Shown piece by piece: positions 10,182 to 21,227 of a stretch of 64,000 nt of DNA. This DNA is from an uncultured Pelagibacteraceae bacterium (GTDB lineage: Bacteria > Pseudomonadota > Alphaproteobacteria > Pelagibacterales > Pelagibacteraceae): NCBI GenBank assembly GCA_902613855.1, contig CACMIX010000002.1, positions 1 through 64,000 of the forward strand, in the 5' to 3' direction. Every line of letters begins with the position of its first letter. The stretch's first letter is position 1. The notes beneath the pieces are model-generated. The model made no database searches and had not been told where the DNA came from. It was given only the letters and a program-made list of their open reading frames with translations. The position numbers and the translations under genes were made by a program.

Positions 10182-10955
10182 ATGAATAAACTAAAATTGT
10201 TTGCTTTAGCAGCTATGGCACTGATTGGATTTTCAGGTATAGCTATTGCGGCAGACGCAACCATGTTGAATCAGGATGATTTCGTAGGTATTTCATTTTG
10301 GATCATATCTATGGGAATGTTAGCAGCGACTGCTTTCTTTTTCATGGAAGTTGGTAACGTAGCAGCAGGCTGGAGAACTTCAGTTATCGTTGCTGGGCTA
10401 GTAACTGGTATTGCATTCATACACTACATGTACATGAGAGAAGTATGGGTTGCTACTGGGGACTCACCAACTGTTTACAGATATATTGACTGGTTAATTA
10501 CTGTGCCATTACAGATGGTAGAATTTTATTTAATTCTAGCTGCTATCGGTAAAGCAAATTCTGGAATGTTCTGGAGATTGCTAATTGGTTCATTAGTAAT
10601 GTTAATCGGTGGATACTTAGGTGAAGCTGGATACATCAACGCTACTCTTGGATTTATAATCGGAATGGCTGGTTGGGTATACATTCTTTATGAAGTATTC
10701 TCAGGTGAAGCTGGAAAAGCTGCAGCAAAAAGTGGAAGCAAGGCTCTTGTAACTGCTTTTGGTGCAATGAGAATGATTGTTACAGTAGGTTGGGCTATTT
10801 ACCCATTAGGTTACATATTTGGTTACCTAACAGGTGGAGTAGATGCTGACTCACTTAACGTTGTTTACAACTTAGCAGACTTTATTAACAAAATTGCATT
10901 TGGTCTAGTAATCTGGGCTGCTGCAACTAGTGTTAGCGGAAAAAGAGCTAAGTAG
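10182..10955 (+). CDS. proteorhodopsin, blue-absorbing type proton pump
   Basis: A light-driven outward proton pump with seven membrane helices and retinal bound to a lysine. A signal peptide (about residues 1-23, ending AIA-A) is visible. Key residues, in this protein's numbering, are H81 (partner of the proton acceptor), D103 (acceptor), T107, E114 (donor) and K237 (Schiff base, in FINKIAFG). The spectral tuning position is Q111 (VPLQMVEF), which in characterised proteorhodopsins gives blue absorption typical of open water. The gene is visibly less AT-rich than its neighbours, as expected for a highly expressed membrane protein. It has its own terminator. No retinal or carotenoid synthesis genes are in the window. 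Confidence 0.97.
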   Translation: MNKLKLFALAAMALIGFSGIAIAADATMLNQDDFVGISFWIISMGMLAATAFFFMEVGNVAAGWRTSVIVAGLVTGIAFIHYMYMREVWVATGDSPTVYRYIDWLITVPLQMVEFYLILAAIGKANSGMFWRLLIGSLVMLIGGYLGEAGYINATLGFIIGMAGWVYILYEVFSGEAGKAAAKSGSKALVTAFGAMRMIVTVGWAIYPLGYIFGYLTGGVDADSLNVVYNLADFINKIAFGLVIWAAATSVSGKRAK

Positions 10956-10978
10956 TTTTACTTAAAAGTTTAAATTAA

Positions 10979-11012
10979 GGGCAGGTATATTTTTATACTT
11001 GCCCTTTTTTTT
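10979..11012 (+). terminator. intrinsic terminator of the proteorhodopsin gene
   Basis: An 11-base-pair stem (10979-10989 with 10994-11004, one G-T pair, GGGC at the base) closes a TTTT loop and is followed directly by eight T residues. This is a textbook rho-independent terminator, and it separates proteorhodopsin transcription from the desaturase gene that starts 45 bases later. Confidence 0.9.
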
Positions 11013-11056
11013 GTCTGTAATAAAATTATGTATAATCACTATACATATATTTAAAA

Positions 11057-12058
11057 ATGGACGTTAAATTAGATAAATGGCACAAATGTCATGTAGACAA
11101 AGAAATCCTTAAAGAGTTATCAAAAAAATCTGACTTAAAAGGTATTCAACATATTTCTGTTTTTTTTGGATTATTAATAATAACTGGAACTTTAGCTTTT
11201 ATAACGTGGGGAACCTGGTGGTCGGTATTTTGGTTTTTAGTCTATGGAAATATTTATTCTTTCTCTAATCCATTGTGGCATGAGACAGGGCACAAGACTG
11301 CTTTTAAATCTAAATTTTTAAACGAAATTTTTTACTATGTTTCCTCTTTCATGTCGAACTTTGAACCTATAAGATGGAGATATACTCATTTCGTTCACCA
11401 TGGAAATACTTATTCTACAGAAAATCCTTTTGATCATGAAATAGAATATGGTAACAACTTAAGAGAAACTCCAAAAAGATTATTAATTAATATTATTCCT
11501 TTTTTAGATTTACTTTTTTTCAAAAAACATATTTCATTTGAAATTATTCAGCACGCTTTTGGAATTAAAACAAAAGTTATGCAAGACAGTATTCCTGAAA
11601 ATGCTCACTCGAAAGCAGTATTAAATTCAAGAGTATATTTATTTATTTGGTTATCTATTATTTGGTGGTCAATATTAGCTACAAGTTGGTTACCTGTTCT
11701 TTATTTTTTATTACCACAATTTTATGGAAAAACACTACATAAACTTGTTGCTTTTACTCAACATGCTGGCCTTGCAAGAAATGTTAAGGATCATCGTCTT
11801 ACTTCAAGAGAAATGTACTTAAACCCTGTTTTAAGTTTTTTGTATTGGAAGATGGAATACCATTTGACACACCACATGTTCCCAACAGTACCATCTTACA
11901 ATTTAGATAAGCTTCATCATCACATTAAAGATCAACTTCCAAGAACAAACGAGGGACTGATTGATGCATATAAAGAAATCATTCCAGCAATAATGAAACA
12001 ATCAAAAGAGGAAGATTATTTTCTAAAAAAAGACATCCCGCAGTTACAAAATGTCTAA
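11057..12058 (+). CDS. membrane di-iron fatty-acid-desaturase family protein
   Basis: A membrane protein of 333 residues with the three histidine boxes of the desaturase/hydroxylase superfamily: H75-E-T-G-H79, H111-F-V-H114-H115 and H269-L-T-H272-H273. Hydrophobic helix pairs lie between the boxes (about 33-65 and 190-220). The third box sits in 'MEYHLTHHMFPTVPSYNLDKLH', a pattern common in bacterial desaturases. These enzymes use O2 and ferredoxin electrons. The following genes encode a [2Fe-2S] ferredoxin and its reductase, which would supply them. The substrate is unknown: an acyl chain is most likely, and a carotenoid or another lipid is possible. The start is ATG after an AT-rich leader without an obvious Shine-Dalgarno. 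Confidence 0.85.
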   Translation: MDVKLDKWHKCHVDKEILKELSKKSDLKGIQHISVFFGLLIITGTLAFITWGTWWSVFWFLVYGNIYSFSNPLWHETGHKTAFKSKFLNEIFYYVSSFMSNFEPIRWRYTHFVHHGNTYSTENPFDHEIEYGNNLRETPKRLLINIIPFLDLLFFKKHISFEIIQHAFGIKTKVMQDSIPENAHSKAVLNSRVYLFIWLSIIWWSILATSWLPVLYFLLPQFYGKTLHKLVAFTQHAGLARNVKDHRLTSREMYLNPVLSFLYWKMEYHLTHHMFPTVPSYNLDKLHHHIKDQLPRTNEGLIDAYKEIIPAIMKQSKEEDYFLKKDIPQLQNV

Positions 12059-12060
12059 AA

Positions 12061-12075
12061 ATAGACTAAGTCTAT
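12061..12075. repeat. 15-base inverted repeat between desaturase and ferredoxin genes
   Basis: ATAGACTAAGTCTAT is a perfect palindrome around one central base and begins 3 bases after the desaturase stop. A second, imperfect GCTCT...AGAGC pair follows at about 12088-12106. TATATA at 12108-12113 lies so close to the ferredoxin ATG (12120) that any transcript from it would be nearly leaderless. The element could be an operator, an RNA processing site or a weak hairpin; nothing here decides which. Confidence 0.4.
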
Positions 12076-12119
12076 CTTTACTCACTTGCTCTATCTAGAG
12101 AAGAGCCTATATATAAATC

Positions 12120-12440
12120 ATGCCAAAAATTACATACAATACACACGATAACCAAACTCATACCATTGATGTTCAAAATGGATTGACTGTGATGGAAGGT
12201 GCAATCCAAAATGATATTCCAGGTATTGATGCAGATTGCGGCGGAGGAATGTCGTGTGCTACCTGTCACGTATATGTTAATGAGGAATGGCTTGATAAGC
12301 TTCCAAAAAAAGAAGATGGTGAGGAAGATATGTTAGATATGGCATTTGAACCAAAAAAAAATAGCCGATTAAGTTGCCAACTTATTGTTTCAGATACACT
12401 TGATGGGCTGGTAGTAAACATTCCATCAAAGCAAGGATAA
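12120..12440 (+). CDS. [2Fe-2S] ferredoxin (adrenodoxin type)
   Basis: A small soluble electron carrier of 106 residues. The cluster ligands follow the C-x5-C-x2-C ... C pattern: '[12 protein letters not shown]' near residues 40-51 and 'RLSCQLIV' near 87. The acidic stretch '[11 protein letters not shown]' between them is the usual partner-docking region of adrenodoxin/putidaredoxin-like proteins, which serve P450s and oxygenases. Here the desaturase upstream and the reductase immediately downstream (stop and start codons abut with no gap) are the natural partners. Confidence 0.92.
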
Positions 12441-13460
12441 ATGATCAAAACAGATGTATTAATTATTGGAGCAGGTCCAACAGGTTTATTTTGTGCGCAT
12501 CAACTTGGAATAATTGGATTAACTTGTGAGATAGTTGATAATTTGGATAAGGCTGGCGGACAATGTATCGAGCTTTATCCTGATAAACCTATTTATGATA
12601 TTCCAGCAATACCTGAGTGTACCGGTGAAGAATTAACTAATAATCTTTTAAAACAAATCAAACCATTTAATGTTAATTTCCACTTAAATCAAAGAGTTGA
12701 AGAACTCAAAAAAGTTGAAAAACGTTGGCACGTAAAAACTAATGGTAATAAAGAATTTGATGTTGCAAGTATTGTTGTTGCGGGAGGGGTAGGATCTTTT
12801 GAACCAAGAAAATTTTCAGTAAAAGAATGCGAAAAATTTGAGGGAAATTCTTTATTTTACTCAGTTAAAGATAAAACAATTTTCAAAGATAAAACAATTT
12901 CAATTTTTGGTGGAGGAGACTCAGCATTAGATTGGGCTATAGAACTTTCAAATACGTCTAAAGTAAATTTAATTCACCGAAGAGATGGATTTAGCGGTAT
13001 GGAGTCAAGTGTTCAAAAAGTAAAAGAATTAAATAATCAAGGTAAAATAAATTTATATACCAAATATCAATTAGAGTCTGTTTCAGGAGATAATAAAATT
13101 GATTTAGTTAAAATTAAACACGATGAGGGTGAAGTAAAAGAAATTAAATCTGATTATATACTTGGTTTCTTTGGTTTAATTATGCAACTTGGTCCAATAT
13201 TGGATTGGGGATTAAATATTGATAAAAAAAAAGTTGAGGTCAATACAGAAAATTTTGAGACCAATATAAATGGTATATTTGCAATTGGCGATATTTGTTC
13301 TTATCCAGGGAAATTAAAATTAATTCTTTCTGGTTTTCATGAAGGAGCTTTGGCTGCTAGAGGTTGTTTTAAATATGCAAAACCAGATGAAAAATTAAAG
13401 TTTGAGTTTACAACTACTTCGAAAGTTGCTCAGGAAAGGCTTGGCATTAAAAATGATTGA
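12441..13460 (+). CDS. ferredoxin--NADP reductase, thioredoxin-reductase-like (YumC type)
   Basis: A two-dinucleotide-fold flavoprotein of 339 residues. The FAD site is 'IIGAGPTGLFCAHQLG' at residues 8-23, and the NAD(P)H site is 'IFGGGDSALDWA' near 152-163. 'GGQCIELYPDKPIYDIPA' and the C-terminal 'AIGDICSYPGKLKLILSGFHEGA' are typical of the YumC-type ferredoxin reductases. The redox-active CxxC of true thioredoxin reductase is absent, so reduction of thioredoxin is unlikely even though such genes are often annotated trxB. It starts right after the ferredoxin stop codon and overlaps the GST by 8 bases. Confidence 0.9.
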   Translation: MIKTDVLIIGAGPTGLFCAHQLGIIGLTCEIVDNLDKAGGQCIELYPDKPIYDIPAIPECTGEELTNNLLKQIKPFNVNFHLNQRVEELKKVEKRWHVKTNGNKEFDVASIVVAGGVGSFEPRKFSVKECEKFEGNSLFYSVKDKTIFKDKTISIFGGGDSALDWAIELSNTSKVNLIHRRDGFSGMESSVQKVKELNNQGKINLYTKYQLESVSGDNKIDLVKIKHDEGEVKEIKSDYILGFFGLIMQLGPILDWGLNIDKKKVEVNTENFETNINGIFAIGDICSYPGKLKLILSGFHEGALAARGCFKYAKPDEKLKFEFTTTSKVAQERLGIKND

Positions 13461-14082
13461 ATTGTTTTCGTCTGACACACCTAATGGAAAAAAAATAAGT
13501 ATAATGTTGGAGGAAATAGGTTTTGAATACAAAGTTACAAAATTAGATTTAGCTAAGGGAGATCAATTTAAACCTGATTTTAAGAAGATAAGCCCTTTTT
13601 CAAAAATACCAACAATTGTTGATCATTCAAATAATAATCAAGCAGTTTTTGAATCTGGTGCAATCCTTATTTATTTATCAGAAAGAAGTGGAAAGTTTTA
13701 TGACAAAGAGAATAAATTAAATATTGATCAATGGCTAATGGCACAAATGGGATTGATAGGACCAATGATAGGACAATATCACTATTTTTACAGATTTAAT
13801 AAAGGCCTAAGTGAAGTCGGTGAAAAAAGATATTTTGAAATTACTAGAAGTATTTATGAGGTTTTAGAAGATCACTTATCAAAAAATAAATATTTAGCGG
13901 GTGAAAATTATTCAATTGCAGATATTGCCACCTGGCCATGGTTAGCTAGACACGAATGGCACGACATTGGTCTTAAAAATTATCAAAATTTATCAAGATG
14001 GTATTTAGAAATTGCAGATCGTGATGCAGTTATTAAAGGTTATGCTTTTATGGATGAAAATGCAGTTATACCTAAGCCTTAA
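13453..14082 (+). CDS. glutathione S-transferase family protein
   Basis: The N-terminal thioredoxin fold ('MIELFSSDTPNGKKISIMLEE', then 'FSKIPTIVDH' with the cis-Pro, and 'FESGAILIYLSE' binding the glutathione gamma-Glu) is followed by an all-helical domain containing 'SIADIATWPW'. This is the YfcG/YghU-like (Nu-class) layout, whose members often act as disulfide reductases of glutathione or peroxides. The ATG at 13453 is chosen because an upstream extension to 13402 would lie wholly inside the reductase gene and lacks homology. It overlaps the reductase by 8 bases, so it is co-translated with the ferredoxin system. Confidence 0.9.
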   Translation: MIELFSSDTPNGKKISIMLEEIGFEYKVTKLDLAKGDQFKPDFKKISPFSKIPTIVDHSNNNQAVFESGAILIYLSERSGKFYDKENKLNIDQWLMAQMGLIGPMIGQYHYFYRFNKGLSEVGEKRYFEITRSIYEVLEDHLSKNKYLAGENYSIADIATWPWLARHEWHDIGLKNYQNLSRWYLEIADRDAVIKGYAFMDENAVIPKP

Positions 14083-14084
14083 GA

Positions 14085-14180
14085 TTAGCTCATCAATCTA
14101 TACAAAGAACTAAATATTCCCATTCCAGACAACTCTATTGCTATAACTACAATGATTATCAAAATTAGTTTTTTGTTCAT
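14085..14180 (-). CDS. 31-residue single-helix membrane micropeptide
   Basis: I do not recognise this protein. It reads M-N-K-K, then about 14 strongly hydrophobic residues (LILIIIVVIAIEL), then a short tail ending RLMS. This is the shape of a one-pass membrane peptide with a positive N-terminus. Its ATG overlaps the TGA of the 42-residue gene upstream as ATGA, a classic translational coupling. Its stop lies 2 bases from the convergent GST stop, so with its partner it fills the gap exactly. Confidence rests on this packing, not on homology. Confidence 0.55.
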   Translation of the reverse strand: MNKKLILIIIVVIAIELSGMGIFSSLYRLMS

Positions 14181-14305
14181 TTAAGAAATAGGTAAAGTAT
14201 TAAAATTGCCCAAATAAAAGGATAATAAAAATAGATATATTTTTTTGCAAACAAGAAAGAGATAGAATTTTGATATGCAGATTTTCTTTTATTTTTTTTA
14301 GTCAT
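14177..14305 (-). CDS. 42-residue membrane micropeptide overlapping dksA-like gene
   Basis: Unrecognised. It starts at an ATG inside the last codons of the DksA-like gene (8-base overlap ATGACTAA) and ends in an ATGA overlap with the 31-residue gene. The product has a basic start (MTKKNKRKSAYQ), an aromatic middle and one hydrophobic helix (YYPFIWAILILYLFLK) at its C-terminus. The three genes thus form one tightly coupled minus-strand unit of about 740 bases. A chance open frame cannot be ruled out in AT-rich DNA, but chained start-stop overlaps argue for genuine translation. Confidence 0.55.
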   Translation of the reverse strand: MTKKNKRKSAYQNSISFLFAKKYIYFYYPFIWAILILYLFLK

Positions 14306-14825
14306 CAGCGTGAACTTTTTCATCTTTTTCATGCTTCTCTTGAGCTGCAATAGTATATTTAGCTACAGGTCGTGCCATTAATCTTTTTAATCCTATTGGC
14401 TCAGCTGTATCTAAACAATATCCATAAGTATCATCTCTAATTCTCATTAAAGCTTTATCAATTTCAGAGATTAGTTTTATTTGTCTATTGATAGCTTTCA
14501 TTTCTACATTTTTATCAGTATACGAGCTTGCCTGATCAACAATATCAGCTGAGATACTGTTGTCATCCATACTGCCATTGTAAAGTGCCTCATTGTTTGC
14601 CTTTACTAATTCTTTTTTCCACTCATTCAATTTGATTCTAAAAAAAACTTTATGTTTTTCACACATATATTTTTCAGTATCTTTTGGTATATAAGTTTTT
14701 GAAATTTTGATAGGACCTTTGGCTACAGCTATTTTTGCTTTGCTCACAATTTTAGATTTAGGTTTGCTCGCAACCTTAGCTTTTGATTTGATGACTTTTT
14801 TCTTTGCTTTGATAGTCTTTGGCAT
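14298..14825 (-). CDS. dksA: DksA/TraR-family transcription regulator with basic N-terminal tail
   Basis: The C-terminal 110 residues match DksA, which enters the RNA polymerase secondary channel and works with ppGpp. They contain a coiled-coil region (about 60-130) with 'DDNSISADIVDQAS' at the tip, and the 'YGYCLDTAEPIGLKRLMARP' block. Only one of the four zinc cysteines remains; the others are Thr, Tyr/Thr and Ala. This resembles alphaproteobacterial DksA and implies a zinc-free fold. Residues 1-40 are a Lys/Ala/Ser-rich, histone-H1-like tail that could bind nucleic acid. It diverges from the GT39 gene across 77 bases and overlaps the 42-residue gene. Confidence 0.88.
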   Translation of the reverse strand: MPKTIKAKKKVIKSKAKVASKPKSKIVSKAKIAVAKGPIKISKTYIPKDTEKYMCEKHKVFFRIKLNEWKKELVKANNEALYNGSMDDNSISADIVDQASSYTDKNVEMKAINRQIKLISEIDKALMRIRDDTYGYCLDTAEPIGLKRLMARPVAKYTIAAQEKHEKDEKVHADD

Positions 14826-14902
14826 AGGTCAATTTTGAGTTCCGGAGTATATTCAGCAAATTATGGGTGTCAAGCAACCTGATTTGATATAAATATTTAC
14901 AA

Positions 14903-16225
14903 ATGAGCGTTAATAGCAAAAATATAAATAATATTTTTTATATTTTTGTTACAGTTCATCTAATATTCTGGACTTTAATTCCATCGCTCACAAATAACAA
15001 CTTGCCTCTAGACACCATTGAAGCTTTAGCTTGGGGTAGCAATTTAGATTGGGGATTTAATAAACATCCACCCATGAGTGCTTTTTTTCCAGAAGTCTTT
15101 TATCAAATTTTTGGTTCACAAGATTGGGTTTATTATTTGCTTAGTCAAATCTTTGTAGTTATTTCATTCTATTATGTTTTTAAACTTTCTAAAGAAATCT
15201 TAAATAATAACTTATTAGGTTTAATTTCAGTTTTATTAATTGAAACTATTTATTTTTATAATTTTACTTCACCAGAATTTAATGTAAATGTTTGCCAACT
15301 TCCATTTTGGTCATTGACTGCTTATTATTCATGGAGAATATTTAGTGGAAAGAATATTAAATTTTCTGACTGTTTTTTAGTTGGTCTGTTTGCAGCTTTT
15401 GGTTTTTTATCTAAATACTTGTTTCTTTATCTTTTAGTGTCAATTGATCTTTTCTTTATTTATCTAATCTTTATCAAGAAAGATCGAAAATTTGATTTTA
15501 AATATTTGATAACTGCTGAAGTATTTTTGGTTGTATTAGTACCTCACTTTATTTGGCTTACCAACAATGAGTTTATTACTATTACTTATGGTCTAGCTAG
15601 AACAGGTTTAGAACAATCAAGCTTAATAAACCATGTTCAATTTCCTTTAATTTTTATAGGAAAACAAATTGGGATATTAATTCCATTTTTGATTTTAACC
15701 TGGCTATTAGTTCAAAAAATAAAATTTAAAATAAATTTTAAGGATAAAAAATTACTTTTTTTGTTATCCATTAATCTCTTACCAATCTTTTTAATATTTT
15801 TAACATCATTTATAACTGGATCAAAAATTAGAACGATGTGGATGACACCATTTTATTTATTTTTTGGTACATTCTTCGTCTATATGCTTCAAACTCAAAT
15901 CAATATAAAAAGATTAAAACCATTTGTAATTGGATTTGTATTCTTTTTCTTTTTATCACCAGTGCTCTATGCATATGTATCAATTTCAAAAGACGATAAA
16001 AGAACAGATTATCCAGGAAAAGAAATTGCTATTAAAACACAATACGCTTGGGACCAACAATTTGACTCGAAGATAAATGTAGTTTTAGGTAATGAATGGA
16101 ATGCTGGTAATTTATCTTTTCACTTAAAATCAAGACCAGTTTGGGAAGGTTTTGTAGAAAGATCTAAACTAGATCAATTGAAAGATTATATGTGCCTTGA
16201 TAATGTTTGTGTGGGCTCAAGATAG
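14903..16225 (+). CDS. ArnT/PMT-like (GT39-type) membrane glycosyltransferase
   Basis: A polytopic protein of 440 residues with about ten membrane helices. The first periplasmic loop carries 'PLDTIEALAWGSNLDWGFNKHPPMSAF', the acidic-plus-KHPP pattern of ArnT/PMT_2 glycosyltransferases. These transfer a sugar from a polyprenyl phosphate carrier to lipid or protein on the periplasmic side. A short soluble tail follows the last helix. The next gene, 3 bases away, encodes a GT2 enzyme of the kind that makes polyprenyl-phosphate sugars, so the two probably supply donor and acceptor steps of one surface modification. Confidence 0.8.
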   Translation: MSVNSKNINNIFYIFVTVHLIFWTLIPSLTNNNLPLDTIEALAWGSNLDWGFNKHPPMSAFFPEVFYQIFGSQDWVYYLLSQIFVVISFYYVFKLSKEILNNNLLGLISVLLIETIYFYNFTSPEFNVNVCQLPFWSLTAYYSWRIFSGKNIKFSDCFLVGLFAAFGFLSKYLFLYLLVSIDLFFIYLIFIKKDRKFDFKYLITAEVFLVVLVPHFIWLTNNEFITITYGLARTGLEQSSLINHVQFPLIFIGKQIGILIPFLILTWLLVQKIKFKINFKDKKLLFLLSINLLPIFLIFLTSFITGSKIRTMWMTPFYLFFGTFFVYMLQTQINIKRLKPFVIGFVFFFFLSPVLYAYVSISKDDKRTDYPGKEIAIKTQYAWDQQFDSKINVVLGNEWNAGNLSFHLKSRPVWEGFVERSKLDQLKDYMCLDNVCVGSR

Positions 16226-18553: not shown

Positions 18554-19701
18554 AAATTACCAGAAGAGATTTTTTAAAAACTACTGCATTAACGTCTTTG
18601 TATTTTGCTGGGTTTGCAGCTCCAGGATATACAAATTCTGGAACAAAAAAAAACTTAGTGGTTATTATGTTGAGAGGTGGCATGGATGGTTTATGCGCAA
18701 TACCTATTAAGGGTGATAAAAATTTTGAAAAATTAAGAAACAAAATTAACCTTGATAGAACTTTATCACTATCAAGTGATTTTGATTTACATCCTGCGTT
18801 AAAAACATTTAAAAGTCTTTGGGATCAAAATCAAAGTGCAGCTGTCCATGCAACAAATATTCCATATACAGGTAGATCACATTTTGACGGACAAAATTTA
18901 ATGGAGTCAGGTGGTAAAATTCCTTACCAAGAAAAAACTGGTTGGCTTGGACGAGGTATGAAAATTGCCGGATTAACCGGAAATGGATTGGCATTAGCAC
19001 TACCGATGCCATTACTAATAAGAGGTGTGCCAATGAACAACAATTATTTTCCTGTTGGTCATAAGTTGCCATATCCTTCTACTCTAAAAATAATTCAAGA
19101 GGCATATAAACAATATGATGAAAAATTATTAAGTGAAAATTTAGAGATAATTCAAACTAGAGAATTAAGCAACACTACAAGTGATGAAAGTTGGGTGCTT
19201 GCTTCAAATGCTGCTAACGAATTATCTAAAACTGATGGACCTCGAGTAGCTGTTTTCGAAGTTGATGGATTCGATACCCATGCAGCTCAAGGAGGAACAA
19301 ACGGAGCTCATGCAGATTGCCTCTCAGATTATGATAATATTGTTCGATCACTTAAGTCATCAATGACAAAAGAAGCTTTTGATAATACTTTAATTTTAAC
19401 TCTTACAGAGTTTGGTAGAACCATAAAACAGAACAGCGGTAATGGAACTGAACATGGTTATGGTTCAGCTGTTTTAATGGCTGGTGGATTAGTTAAAAAG
19501 GCTCAAGTACACGCAGATTGGCCTGGATTGAAAAGAAAAGAACTATTTGAAGGAAGAGATTTAAATTCTACTATTGATGCTAGATCAATTTATGCATCAG
19601 CAATGTCGACTGTATTTGATTTAGATTTTAAACGTATTCAAAAAGATGTTTTTTGGGGAGAGAATTTACAAAATCTATCTGATAAACTTTTTAAAGTTTA
19701 G
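18550..19701 (+). CDS. DUF1501 family protein with Tat signal
   Basis: A 383-residue, alkaline-phosphatase-superfamily-like (DUF1501, sulfatase-related) protein. The N-terminus has a twin-arginine export signal, 'TRRDFLKTTALTS', followed by a hydrophobic stretch and AAPGYTNS. Family blocks include 'VVIMLRGGMDGL' near 36-47, 'TGRSHFDGQNLMESG' and 'FDTHAAQGG' / 'LTEFGRTIKQN'. Export in folded form suggests a bound cofactor. The function of DUF1501/DUF1800 pairs is unknown. Its stop overlaps the convergent 73-residue gene by 4 bases. Confidence 0.87.
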   Translation: MKITRRDFLKTTALTSLYFAGFAAPGYTNSGTKKNLVVIMLRGGMDGLCAIPIKGDKNFEKLRNKINLDRTLSLSSDFDLHPALKTFKSLWDQNQSAAVHATNIPYTGRSHFDGQNLMESGGKIPYQEKTGWLGRGMKIAGLTGNGLALALPMPLLIRGVPMNNNYFPVGHKLPYPSTLKIIQEAYKQYDEKLLSENLEIIQTRELSNTTSDESWVLASNAANELSKTDGPRVAVFEVDGFDTHAAQGGTNGAHADCLSDYDNIVRSLKSSMTKEAFDNTLILTLTEFGRTIKQNSGNGTEHGYGSAVLMAGGLVKKAQVHADWPGLKRKELFEGRDLNSTIDARSIYASAMSTVFDLDFKRIQKDVFWGENLQNLSDKLFKV

Positions 19702-19919
19702 CAACAACTACAACTTTTTTTAGCAGCTTTAGGTTGATTGTTAACTCTTGCAGCTTCTAATTCTTTTTGCTCGTTTTCAAAAGCTTTCTGCTTCTTTGAT
19801 ATTTTATATTCAAAGTAATCATAGAGGCATGTAAAACCTAATTTAGAGGCTCTTTTTTCCTCATAATTTCTTCGGCCTCCAAGATTTTCTATTATTTTAA
19901 CTATTTCTTGATTTTGCAT
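19698..19919 (-). CDS. small conserved-looking protein with C-terminal CSCC
   Basis: I do not recognise this 73-residue protein. It is highly charged and helical, with 'IVKIIENLGGRRNYEEKRASKLGF' followed by a Lys/Glu-rich coiled-coil-like segment (about 38-58), and it ends in KKSCSCC. Three cysteines in the last four residues could bind metal, form disulfides or be lipidated. The segment 'ASKLGFTCLYDYFEYKI' adds a fourth cysteine. It begins with ATG 30 bases downstream of the umuC start-of-gap and is on the same strand, so it could be read from the umuDC transcript running in the other order: umuD, umuC, then this gene. Confidence 0.65.
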   Translation of the reverse strand: MQNQEIVKIIENLGGRRNYEEKRASKLGFTCLYDYFEYKISKKQKAFENEQKELEAARVNNQPKAAKKSCSCC

Positions 19920-19949
19920 GCTCTCTTTTTATAAAAAAACCCTATTAAA

Positions 19950-21227
19950 TCAACCACTAATAGTGGGTAGACAATAAAAGTCAGCAGTATCAATTTTAGA
20001 AGAATATTGCCTTCTCATGTTCCACTTTTTATGAACCCCAGCACTTGCAACACTCAAAGTAGATCTTCCGTATCGATGATTGGTATTATCAATTGATCTC
20101 ATCAAGCTATTTATTTTCTCATCTTTTTTAGATGTAAATAAATTTGTTTTATCACTAGCATTAGATAATCCTGTAAGCATCACTCCTGCTTTTTGATATC
20201 GGTAACCATTTTTAAATATATTTTCCAAGATTGAAACTGCTGTTTTAACTATTTCAATACTATTGTTTGTTGCAATTGGAAAATCTACTGTTTTTGAATT
20301 TGAATAATAACCAAAGTTTCTTTGAAAGGGACTGGTTCTAACAAATACCGTAATTGCTTTTGCAACCAAAGACTCTGATCTTATTTTTTCAGATGCGTTT
20401 AAACAATAATTTGCAACTGCTTCTTTTAACTCTTGGAACATTTCAATTCTTTTTCCAAACGATCTGGATACGACACAACTCTTTCTTTTAGTGGTAGTGG
20501 TTTCTAAACCTATACAAGGAATTCCTCTAAGCTCCATTGCTGTTCTTGAACTTAGAACATTTGAAGATTTTTTGATCCAGGTATTAGATTTATTCTTTAA
20601 TTGTTTAGCGTTATAAATACCATGCTTTTGATAAAATTTAGTTAATTGTCTACCAACGCCCCAAACATCATTAATTTCAACTTTTTCTAAAATAGGATCT
20701 AAATTTTCTATACCAATTAAACTAGTAACTCCTGATTGTTTTTTCTTTGCAATATGATTTGCAATTTTACTTAAAGTTTTTGTTTTAGCAATTCCAATAC
20801 TAGTTGGAATACCTGTCCATTGTAAAACAGTTTCTCTAATTTCTTTACCAATTTTTTCTACATCTTCATCAGGAAAATTTGATAAATCTAAAAATGCCTC
20901 ATCAATTGAATAGACTTCTATTTCTGAATTAAATCTTTTAAGAGTTCGCATCACTCTTCTAGATAAATCACCATACAAAGAATAATTTGAGGAAAAAACT
21001 TCAACTTTATTTTTAATAATAATATCTTTTCCTTTAAAGTAGGGCTCTCCCATCTTAATTCCTAAAGCTTTTGCTTCATTGGATCTAGAGATGATACAGC
21101 CATCATTATTAGATAAAACAACAACAGGTTTTCGTCTTATTTTAGGATTAAATAATCTTTCACAAGAAACATAAAAAGAATTACAGTCAACTAATGCTAT
21201 TTTTTTAGTACGTAGAATGGATGACAT
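19950..21227 (-). CDS. umuC: DNA polymerase V catalytic subunit (Y-family)
   Basis: An error-prone lesion-bypass polymerase of 425 residues. The palm begins with 'ALVDCNSFYVSCERLF' (first catalytic Asp), the second acidic pair is in 'YSIDEAFLDL' near residue 104, and the helix-hairpin-helix region follows ('VWGVGRQLTKFYQKHGI'). The little-finger domain and the C-terminal UmuC-specific part ('RYGRSTLSVASAGV') are complete. It overlaps umuD by 23 bases, as in many umuDC operons, and shares its LexA-type promoter. SOS mutagenesis is a notable keep in a streamlined genome. Confidence 0.93.
   Translation of the reverse strand: MSSILRTKKIALVDCNSFYVSCERLFNPKIRRKPVVVLSNNDGCIISRSNEAKALGIKMGEPYFKGKDIIIKNKVEVFSSNYSLYGDLSRRVMRTLKRFNSEIEVYSIDEAFLDLSNFPDEDVEKIGKEIRETVLQWTGIPTSIGIAKTKTLSKIANHIAKKKQSGVTSLIGIENLDPILEKVEINDVWGVGRQLTKFYQKHGIYNAKQLKNKSNTWIKKSSNVLSSRTAMELRGIPCIGLETTTTKRKSCVVSRSFGKRIEMFQELKEAVANYCLNASEKIRSESLVAKAITVFVRTSPFQRNFGYYSNSKTVDFPIATNNSIEIVKTAVSILENIFKNGYRYQKAGVMLTGLSNASDKTNLFTSKKDEKINSLMRSIDNTNHRYGRSTLSVASAGVHKKWNMRRQYSSKIDTADFYCLPTISG

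Follow-up and report, generated by a model that had tools for sequence, protein, structure and literature searches.

Two predicted membrane micropeptide families of Pelagibacteraceae, found behind a dksA-like gene and separable from it

SAR11 bacteria are among the most abundant marine cells and have very compact genomes. In the window, by which we mean the whole 64,000-nucleotide stretch of Pelagibacteraceae DNA analysed here, a dksA-like gene on the minus strand is followed by two very short reading frames, ORF1 and ORF2, which occupy the space up to a convergent GST-family gene. The locus raises the question of whether the two frames are genes and, if they are, whether they work with DksA, as a preliminary description had proposed by reading the trio as a small stringent-response or envelope-stress module. 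The features are as follows.

14298–14825, minus strand: DksA-like gene (175 aa), the upstream neighbour of ORF1; its 3′ end reads GAT GAC TAA.
14177–14305, minus strand, stop codon included: ORF1 (42 aa), with a basic N-terminus and a single hydrophobic helix; the ATG is at 14305 and the stop ends at 14177.
14085–14180, minus strand, stop codon included: ORF2, a predicted 31-aa membrane micropeptide with an I-E-x-S-G-x-G signature.
14298–14305, minus strand: 8-base overlap, ATGACTAA, between the dksA stop and the ORF1 start.
14177–14180, minus strand: 4-base ATGA overlap between the ORF1 stop and the ORF2 start.
13453–14082, plus strand: GST-family gene, the convergent neighbour, which ends a rhodopsin–desaturase–ferredoxin–reductase–GST run; its start is placed at the ATG giving an 8-base overlap with the reductase gene.

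Rechecking of the coordinates confirmed that dksA shares 8 bases with a 42-codon frame, that ATGA joins this frame to one of 31 codons and that the pair fills the gap to the convergent gene, leaving 2 free bases between the end of ORF2 (14085) and the end of the GST stop (14082). The preliminary description had also given each product one hydrophobic helix and a basic N-terminus, and this holds: each has one hydrophobic stretch, with a best 19-residue Kyte–Doolittle mean of 1.81 in ORF1 and 2.77 in ORF2, and a net charge on its N side of +7 and +2, respectively. By the positive-inside rule, both peptides would insert with the N-terminus in and the C-terminus out. AlphaFold2 gives ORF1 a loose basic N-terminus and a helix at residues 15–41 (mean pLDDT 77.4), and ORF2 a helix at 3–17, a break at SGxG and a second helix at 22–30 (mean pLDDT 89.6), with the reservation that models of 42 and 31 residues carry little information beyond helix propensity. 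The 126 ORF1–ORF2 pairs collected reduce to 96 when exact DNA identity is removed, 88 of which are linked to dksA. Nearly all of these carry a signature, Y-I-x-[FYI]-Y-Y-x3-W in 95 of the 96 distinct ORF1 and I-E-x-S-G-x-G in 95 of the 96 distinct ORF2; the latter is also present in all 27 rows of a wider ORF2 alignment. In the wide ORF1 alignment Y-Y alone is invariant, so its outer members are less certain. A light-harvesting-like reading was dropped, as ORF2 has no invariant His, and so was a TatA-like one, as TatA has the orientation opposite to that implied by a positive N-terminus.

The upstream protein exceeds the Pfam cut-offs for both DksA_N (49.3 bits, cut-off 27) and zf-dskA_traR (32.9 bits, cut-off 24.9), and falls under that of the NCBIfam DksA equivalog TIGR02420 (102.5 bits, cut-off 115.5). 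Set against E. coli DksA, it presumably retains one of the four zinc-finger cysteines. It also carries a Lys-rich N-terminal extension of ~35 aa that lies outside the match in many same-genus relatives, with matches beginning at residue 31–39. On the other side of the pair, the rhodopsin, fatty acid desaturase, 2Fe-2S ferredoxin, pyridine-nucleotide reductase and GST genes (10182–14082, plus strand) all run in one direction, and from ferredoxin to GST their ends abut or overlap.

Sequence comparison indicates that ORF1 and ORF2 are very probably genuine genes under in-frame purifying selection. The dN/dS comparison used 86 ORF1, 88 ORF2 and 88 dksA sequences, all from dksA-linked pairs. In tree-free Nei–Gojobori counts, in which the pairs are not independent, the median was 0.22 for ORF1, from 86 sequences and 1125 usable pairs, and 0.16 for ORF2, from 88 sequences and 429 pairs; the wrong frames (two shifted and one antisense) had medians of 0.89 to 2.54, and the last 100 codons of dksA one of 0.02. 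Substitutions in both frames fall mainly at third codon positions and not equally at all three. Nor does the gap after dksA vary freely. Among 120 dksA–GST junctions distinct by DNA, 84 have a gap of 213–231 bases holding both frames, in 35 the two genes are at most 10 bases apart with neither frame, and one (L136) has a 128-base gap with ORF2 but no ORF1; as the loci were chosen mainly for dksA or the peptides, these proportions should not be read as frequencies in the population. None of the 120 is a half-decayed junction of full length. Chance reading frames were rejected on the dN/dS contrast and the all-or-nothing junctions, and a structured RNA on the lack of any Rfam match in 13000–15500 and on changes that track codon positions. 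The lack of internal stops in the 96 pairs holds by construction, as stop-free segments were scanned, and is not counted as evidence.

The narrow ORF1 profile matched 194 of 397 genomes of the order, all within the window's genus, and the ORF2 profile 268 of 397, from four genera of one family, the Pelagibacteraceae; these profiles and the wider ones include rows from some of the genomes searched. Among the 114 genomes of the genus that are at least 90% complete, with one genome per species, a wider profile found ORF2 in 90 and a wide ORF1 profile found ORF1 in 93, some of which may belong to another family because this profile lumps weakly similar peptides. With unlisted negatives assigned by elimination, 86 of the 114 have both peptides (57 adjacent, 29 apart), 7 have ORF1 only, 4 have ORF2 only and 17 have neither. 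Each positive genome listed has one match at E 0.001 or better, and weaker second hits are few. Four single-contig genomes that are 99–100% complete (G012, G103, G106 and G110) are without both at the thresholds used, and three single-contig genomes (G102, G107 and G108) have both; therefore, ORF1 and ORF2 are dispensable. In G012, the GST gene lies 2 bases from dksA. A diverged ORF2 in the ORF2-negative genomes was considered and rejected, as each of the weak hits (L300–L302) falls within another gene, antisense to one or in a frame of no relevance.

Both peptides are conserved beyond one species, and their range is narrow. In a class-wide sample, ORF2 matched 2 of 289 genomes, both of the window's genus, and ORF1 had hits in 9 of 308 at E 0.05: two in the window's genus at 1e-16 and seven outside the family at E 0.006–0.038, which are likely chance. 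When 84,980 species genomes were scanned for the pattern, 101 relatives turned up, and the 80 listed are all titled Pelagibacteraceae or Pelagibacterales. No curated Pfam or NCBIfam family was found above cut-off for the window peptides and eight relatives; a profile search of the PDB returned no match for ORF1 and a best E of 0.43 for ORF2, and PADLOC returned none for either. No relatives were found on viral contigs, and the best PHROGs match (E 0.01) is to an entry of unknown function; a phage origin was rejected on these grounds. A listings-level search of the open-licence literature found no paper naming the peptides. On these searches they appear to form two undescribed families, with relatives found only in Pelagibacteraceae or Pelagibacterales.

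We then compared the genes around them. Of 47 readable same-genus dksA loci (truncated L047 being excluded), 15 have the pair, the window included, in 25 no more than 10 bases separate dksA from the GST gene, and 7 show neither arrangement, so that the pair is absent behind dksA in 32. In another family, it is absent from all 22 dksA loci read of the 33 matched. Seen from ORF2, 37 of the 80 loci listed among the 101 matches are dksA–ORF1–ORF2, 21 have nadA within 3 kb, 11 sit at a PMT/GT2 glycosyltransferase pair or next to GT2, 5 have ORF1–ORF2 in the carB region and 6 are other. The intact pair occurs behind PhyH (L169), behind carB (L168 and L209) and behind a 148-aa neighbour of carB (L197 and L203), and in L170 a 243-aa gene intervenes between dksA and ORF1, leaving the pair intact. 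ORF1 is found without ORF2 beside an arginase-family and an aldehyde dehydrogenase gene (L161), following a gene for a short-chain dehydrogenase (L277) and ahead of a DsbD-type gene (L272); ORF2 is found without ORF1 behind dksA (L177), a sigma-70-family gene (L179) and a DctM-type transporter gene (L176). The peptides are thus separable from dksA and from each other. In seven loci (L171, L172, L173, L174, L175, L185 and L186), ORF2 sits between a PMT_2-type gene and a GT2 gene; in the window, PMT_2-type and GT2 genes lie 3 bases apart and ORF2 is ~2 kb off, beyond dksA.

The reading we favour, with a probability of about 0.62, is that these are two real Pelagibacteraceae families of inner-membrane micropeptides, which would either modulate larger membrane proteins or belong to them as accessory subunits, often in one assembly, and would not serve DksA. 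Each would usually be present as one copy per genome. In ORF2, a short helix in the membrane would terminate at E-x-S-G-x-G and give way to a second short helix lying at the membrane's outer face. Both peptides may use their conserved faces to dock laterally on larger proteins of the inner membrane, as CydX and AcrZ do. Their repeated placement side by side suggests that they may often act in the same assembly. In the window, they would be carried on the dksA transcript at its 3′ end, with translation probably coupled; the reason would be that small genes are packed into such junctions in compact SAR11-type genomes, and not that the peptides serve DksA.

Known small membrane proteins offer parallels. 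CydX, a 37-aa subunit of cytochrome bd oxidase, is described as a single-span protein with a cytosolic N-terminus, a periplasmic C-terminus and few highly conserved residues (PMC4325964). ORF1 and ORF2 resemble it as predicted single-span micropeptides with few conserved residues and a putative N-in, C-out topology, but its motif YxxWxxGx15[E/D] occurs in 0 of 96 ORF1 and 0 of 96 ORF2, and whereas CydX neighbours cydAB, the immediate flanks of our pair in the window are dksA and GST. AcrZ is described as a small protein that attaches to the membrane portion of the large transporter AcrB and tunes the efflux pump (PMC7267776); it serves as the working model for how ORF1 and ORF2 would act. More generally, small membrane proteins have been characterized as short ORFs with one membrane helix that are conserved beyond the species (PMC10903887), and ORF1 and ORF2, with one predicted helix each, would fit this account, although in our searches they are confined to one bacterial family and their genomic position shifts. 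The cbb3 oxidase assembly protein CcoS was the only NCBIfam model listed for ORF2 (E 0.37), but the score of 10.5 bits against a cut-off of 28.35 is at chance level.

The main alternative holds that ORF1 and ORF2 have separate partners and functions, and that they lie side by side through an accident of packing that descent has spread, which we consider doubtful and yet worth serious weight. It accords with the finding that the genes are not obligate partners, since among the 114 genomes 29 have them apart, 11 have a single one and 17 have neither, and with the loci in which ORF2 stands alone behind dksA, the sigma-70-family gene or the DctM-type gene. Co-occurrence over the 114 genomes is strong when kinship is ignored (p = 2e-11, or 1.4e-5 without the adjacent pairs), and mostly reflects clade membership. 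A carB tree was built for 80 of the 114; G170, G171, G166, G189 and G134 have no full carB match, G184 was included with a partial match, and the remaining genomes, among them G724 with two partial pieces, were left out. In a clade of 48, the genes are adjacent in 36 genomes, apart in 1 and both missing in 11; the earlier claim of two undescribed membrane micropeptide genes is supported, and this one large clade of the genus keeps them as a pair. In a clade of 32, they are apart in 17, adjacent in 2, single in 7 and 3, and both missing in 3. Within this mostly-apart clade co-occurrence is not significant (Fisher p = 0.35), so we reject it as proof of partnership, and the case for partnership therefore comes from repeated adjacency only.

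This adjacency is what the separate-functions alternative explains less well. ORF1 is upstream in 57 of the 57 adjacent cases among the 114 genomes, the adjacent pair occurs behind at least four different upstream genes, and adjacency is found in two parts of the carB tree, the large clade and G108/G213, whose carB-region pair is nested in the clade of 32 with low internal support. In G108/G213, ORF1 scores best with a split-type copy and ORF2 with dksA-linked copies (9 and 7 split-type sequences against 88 dksA-linked). The simplest reading is a second joining of the two genes, with transfer of the pair as the alternative.

The second alternative, which we consider unlikely, is that the peptides belong to the neighbouring proteorhodopsin or electron-transfer gene run and assist light-driven or redox proteins of the membrane as small accessories. 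That run ends facing the pair in the window, and in 36 of the 37 dksA–ORF1–ORF2 loci among the matches listed, the GST gene and a reductase gene come next. In a second genus, an ORF1-like peptide of 43–45 aa lies between rhodopsin and ferredoxin-like genes in 5 of 7 loci read from 11 matches (L288, L289, L291, L293 and L295; the rhodopsin is Pfam-checked in L288 only), but these five matches are weak, with single-genome E values of 4e-4 to 9e-4. The peptides also occur in contexts without such a run, including the other 2 of the 7 second-genus loci, and G012 retains the reductase–GST end without either peptide. We thus regard the proteorhodopsin or redox link as a weak lead.

The proposal of the preliminary description, that DksA and the two peptides are co-made as a stringent-response or envelope-stress device with translational coupling setting their ratio, appears quite improbable. 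The overlaps that suggested it are indeed kept across genomes: ORF1 starts at −8 relative to dksA in 73 of 88 distinct dksA-linked pairs, and ORF2 starts at −4 in 71 of 88, as well as in 3 of 8 distinct other pairs. Similarly, an ATG at −8 is present in 82 of 86 distinct dksA ends with ORF1 next and in 12 of 65 without it, a contrast that ignores kinship and in which some of the 82 lie outside the frame of ORF1. The dksA–ORF1–ORF2 order is also the one seen in 37 of the 80 listed ORF2 loci. However, the pair is missing behind dksA in the 32 of 47 same-genus and 22 of 22 other-family loci, the peptides also follow unrelated genes, and in L170 another gene splits dksA from ORF1. ORF1 and ORF2 are therefore not stably linked to dksA; their tie to it is probably local and incidental, and the DksA-centred module is left unsupported.

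The overlaps are, moreover, ordinary in the window. Among neighbours of at least 90 aa on the same strand, there is an ATG overlapping or adjoining the stop of the preceding gene in 14 of 43, when the ATG nearest that stop is picked, a choice that favours overlaps; three of these overlap by exactly 8 bases, including the reductase (FNR)–GST junction beside the locus, and two by 4. Similarly, 7 of 9 convergent junctions measure 20 bases or fewer, the two larger ones being the dksA/GST junction and 19701–19950. Because overlapping or abutting neighbours and tight convergent junctions are this common, the overlaps and the close fit at dksA–ORF1–ORF2 are not remarkable per se. In such packed genomes, gene overlap is weak evidence for shared function.

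Two further readings have less in their favour. It would be a long shot to take ORF1 and ORF2 as a two-peptide SAR11 device that modulates the proton circuit through proteorhodopsin or a respiratory complex, the pair being reassembled at more than one site from separate genes. Type I toxin-like or selfish hydrophobic peptides roaming between sites, which would suit their shortness, hydrophobicity, patchy distribution and positional mobility, are hardly credible given one match at E 0.001 or better per listed positive genome, purifying selection, and the lack of viral-contig relatives, of any PADLOC match and of any Rfam match in 13000–15500. Both micropeptides are retained in 86 of the 114 genomes, although they change position and can be lost, and they point to an unstudied layer of membrane biology.

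The other convergent gap of more than 200 bases in the window (19701–19950) likewise contains a small ORF. It has no Pfam match at E 0.01, encodes 73 aa on the minus strand (19698–19919) with a C-terminal KKSCSCC tail, and fills that gap.
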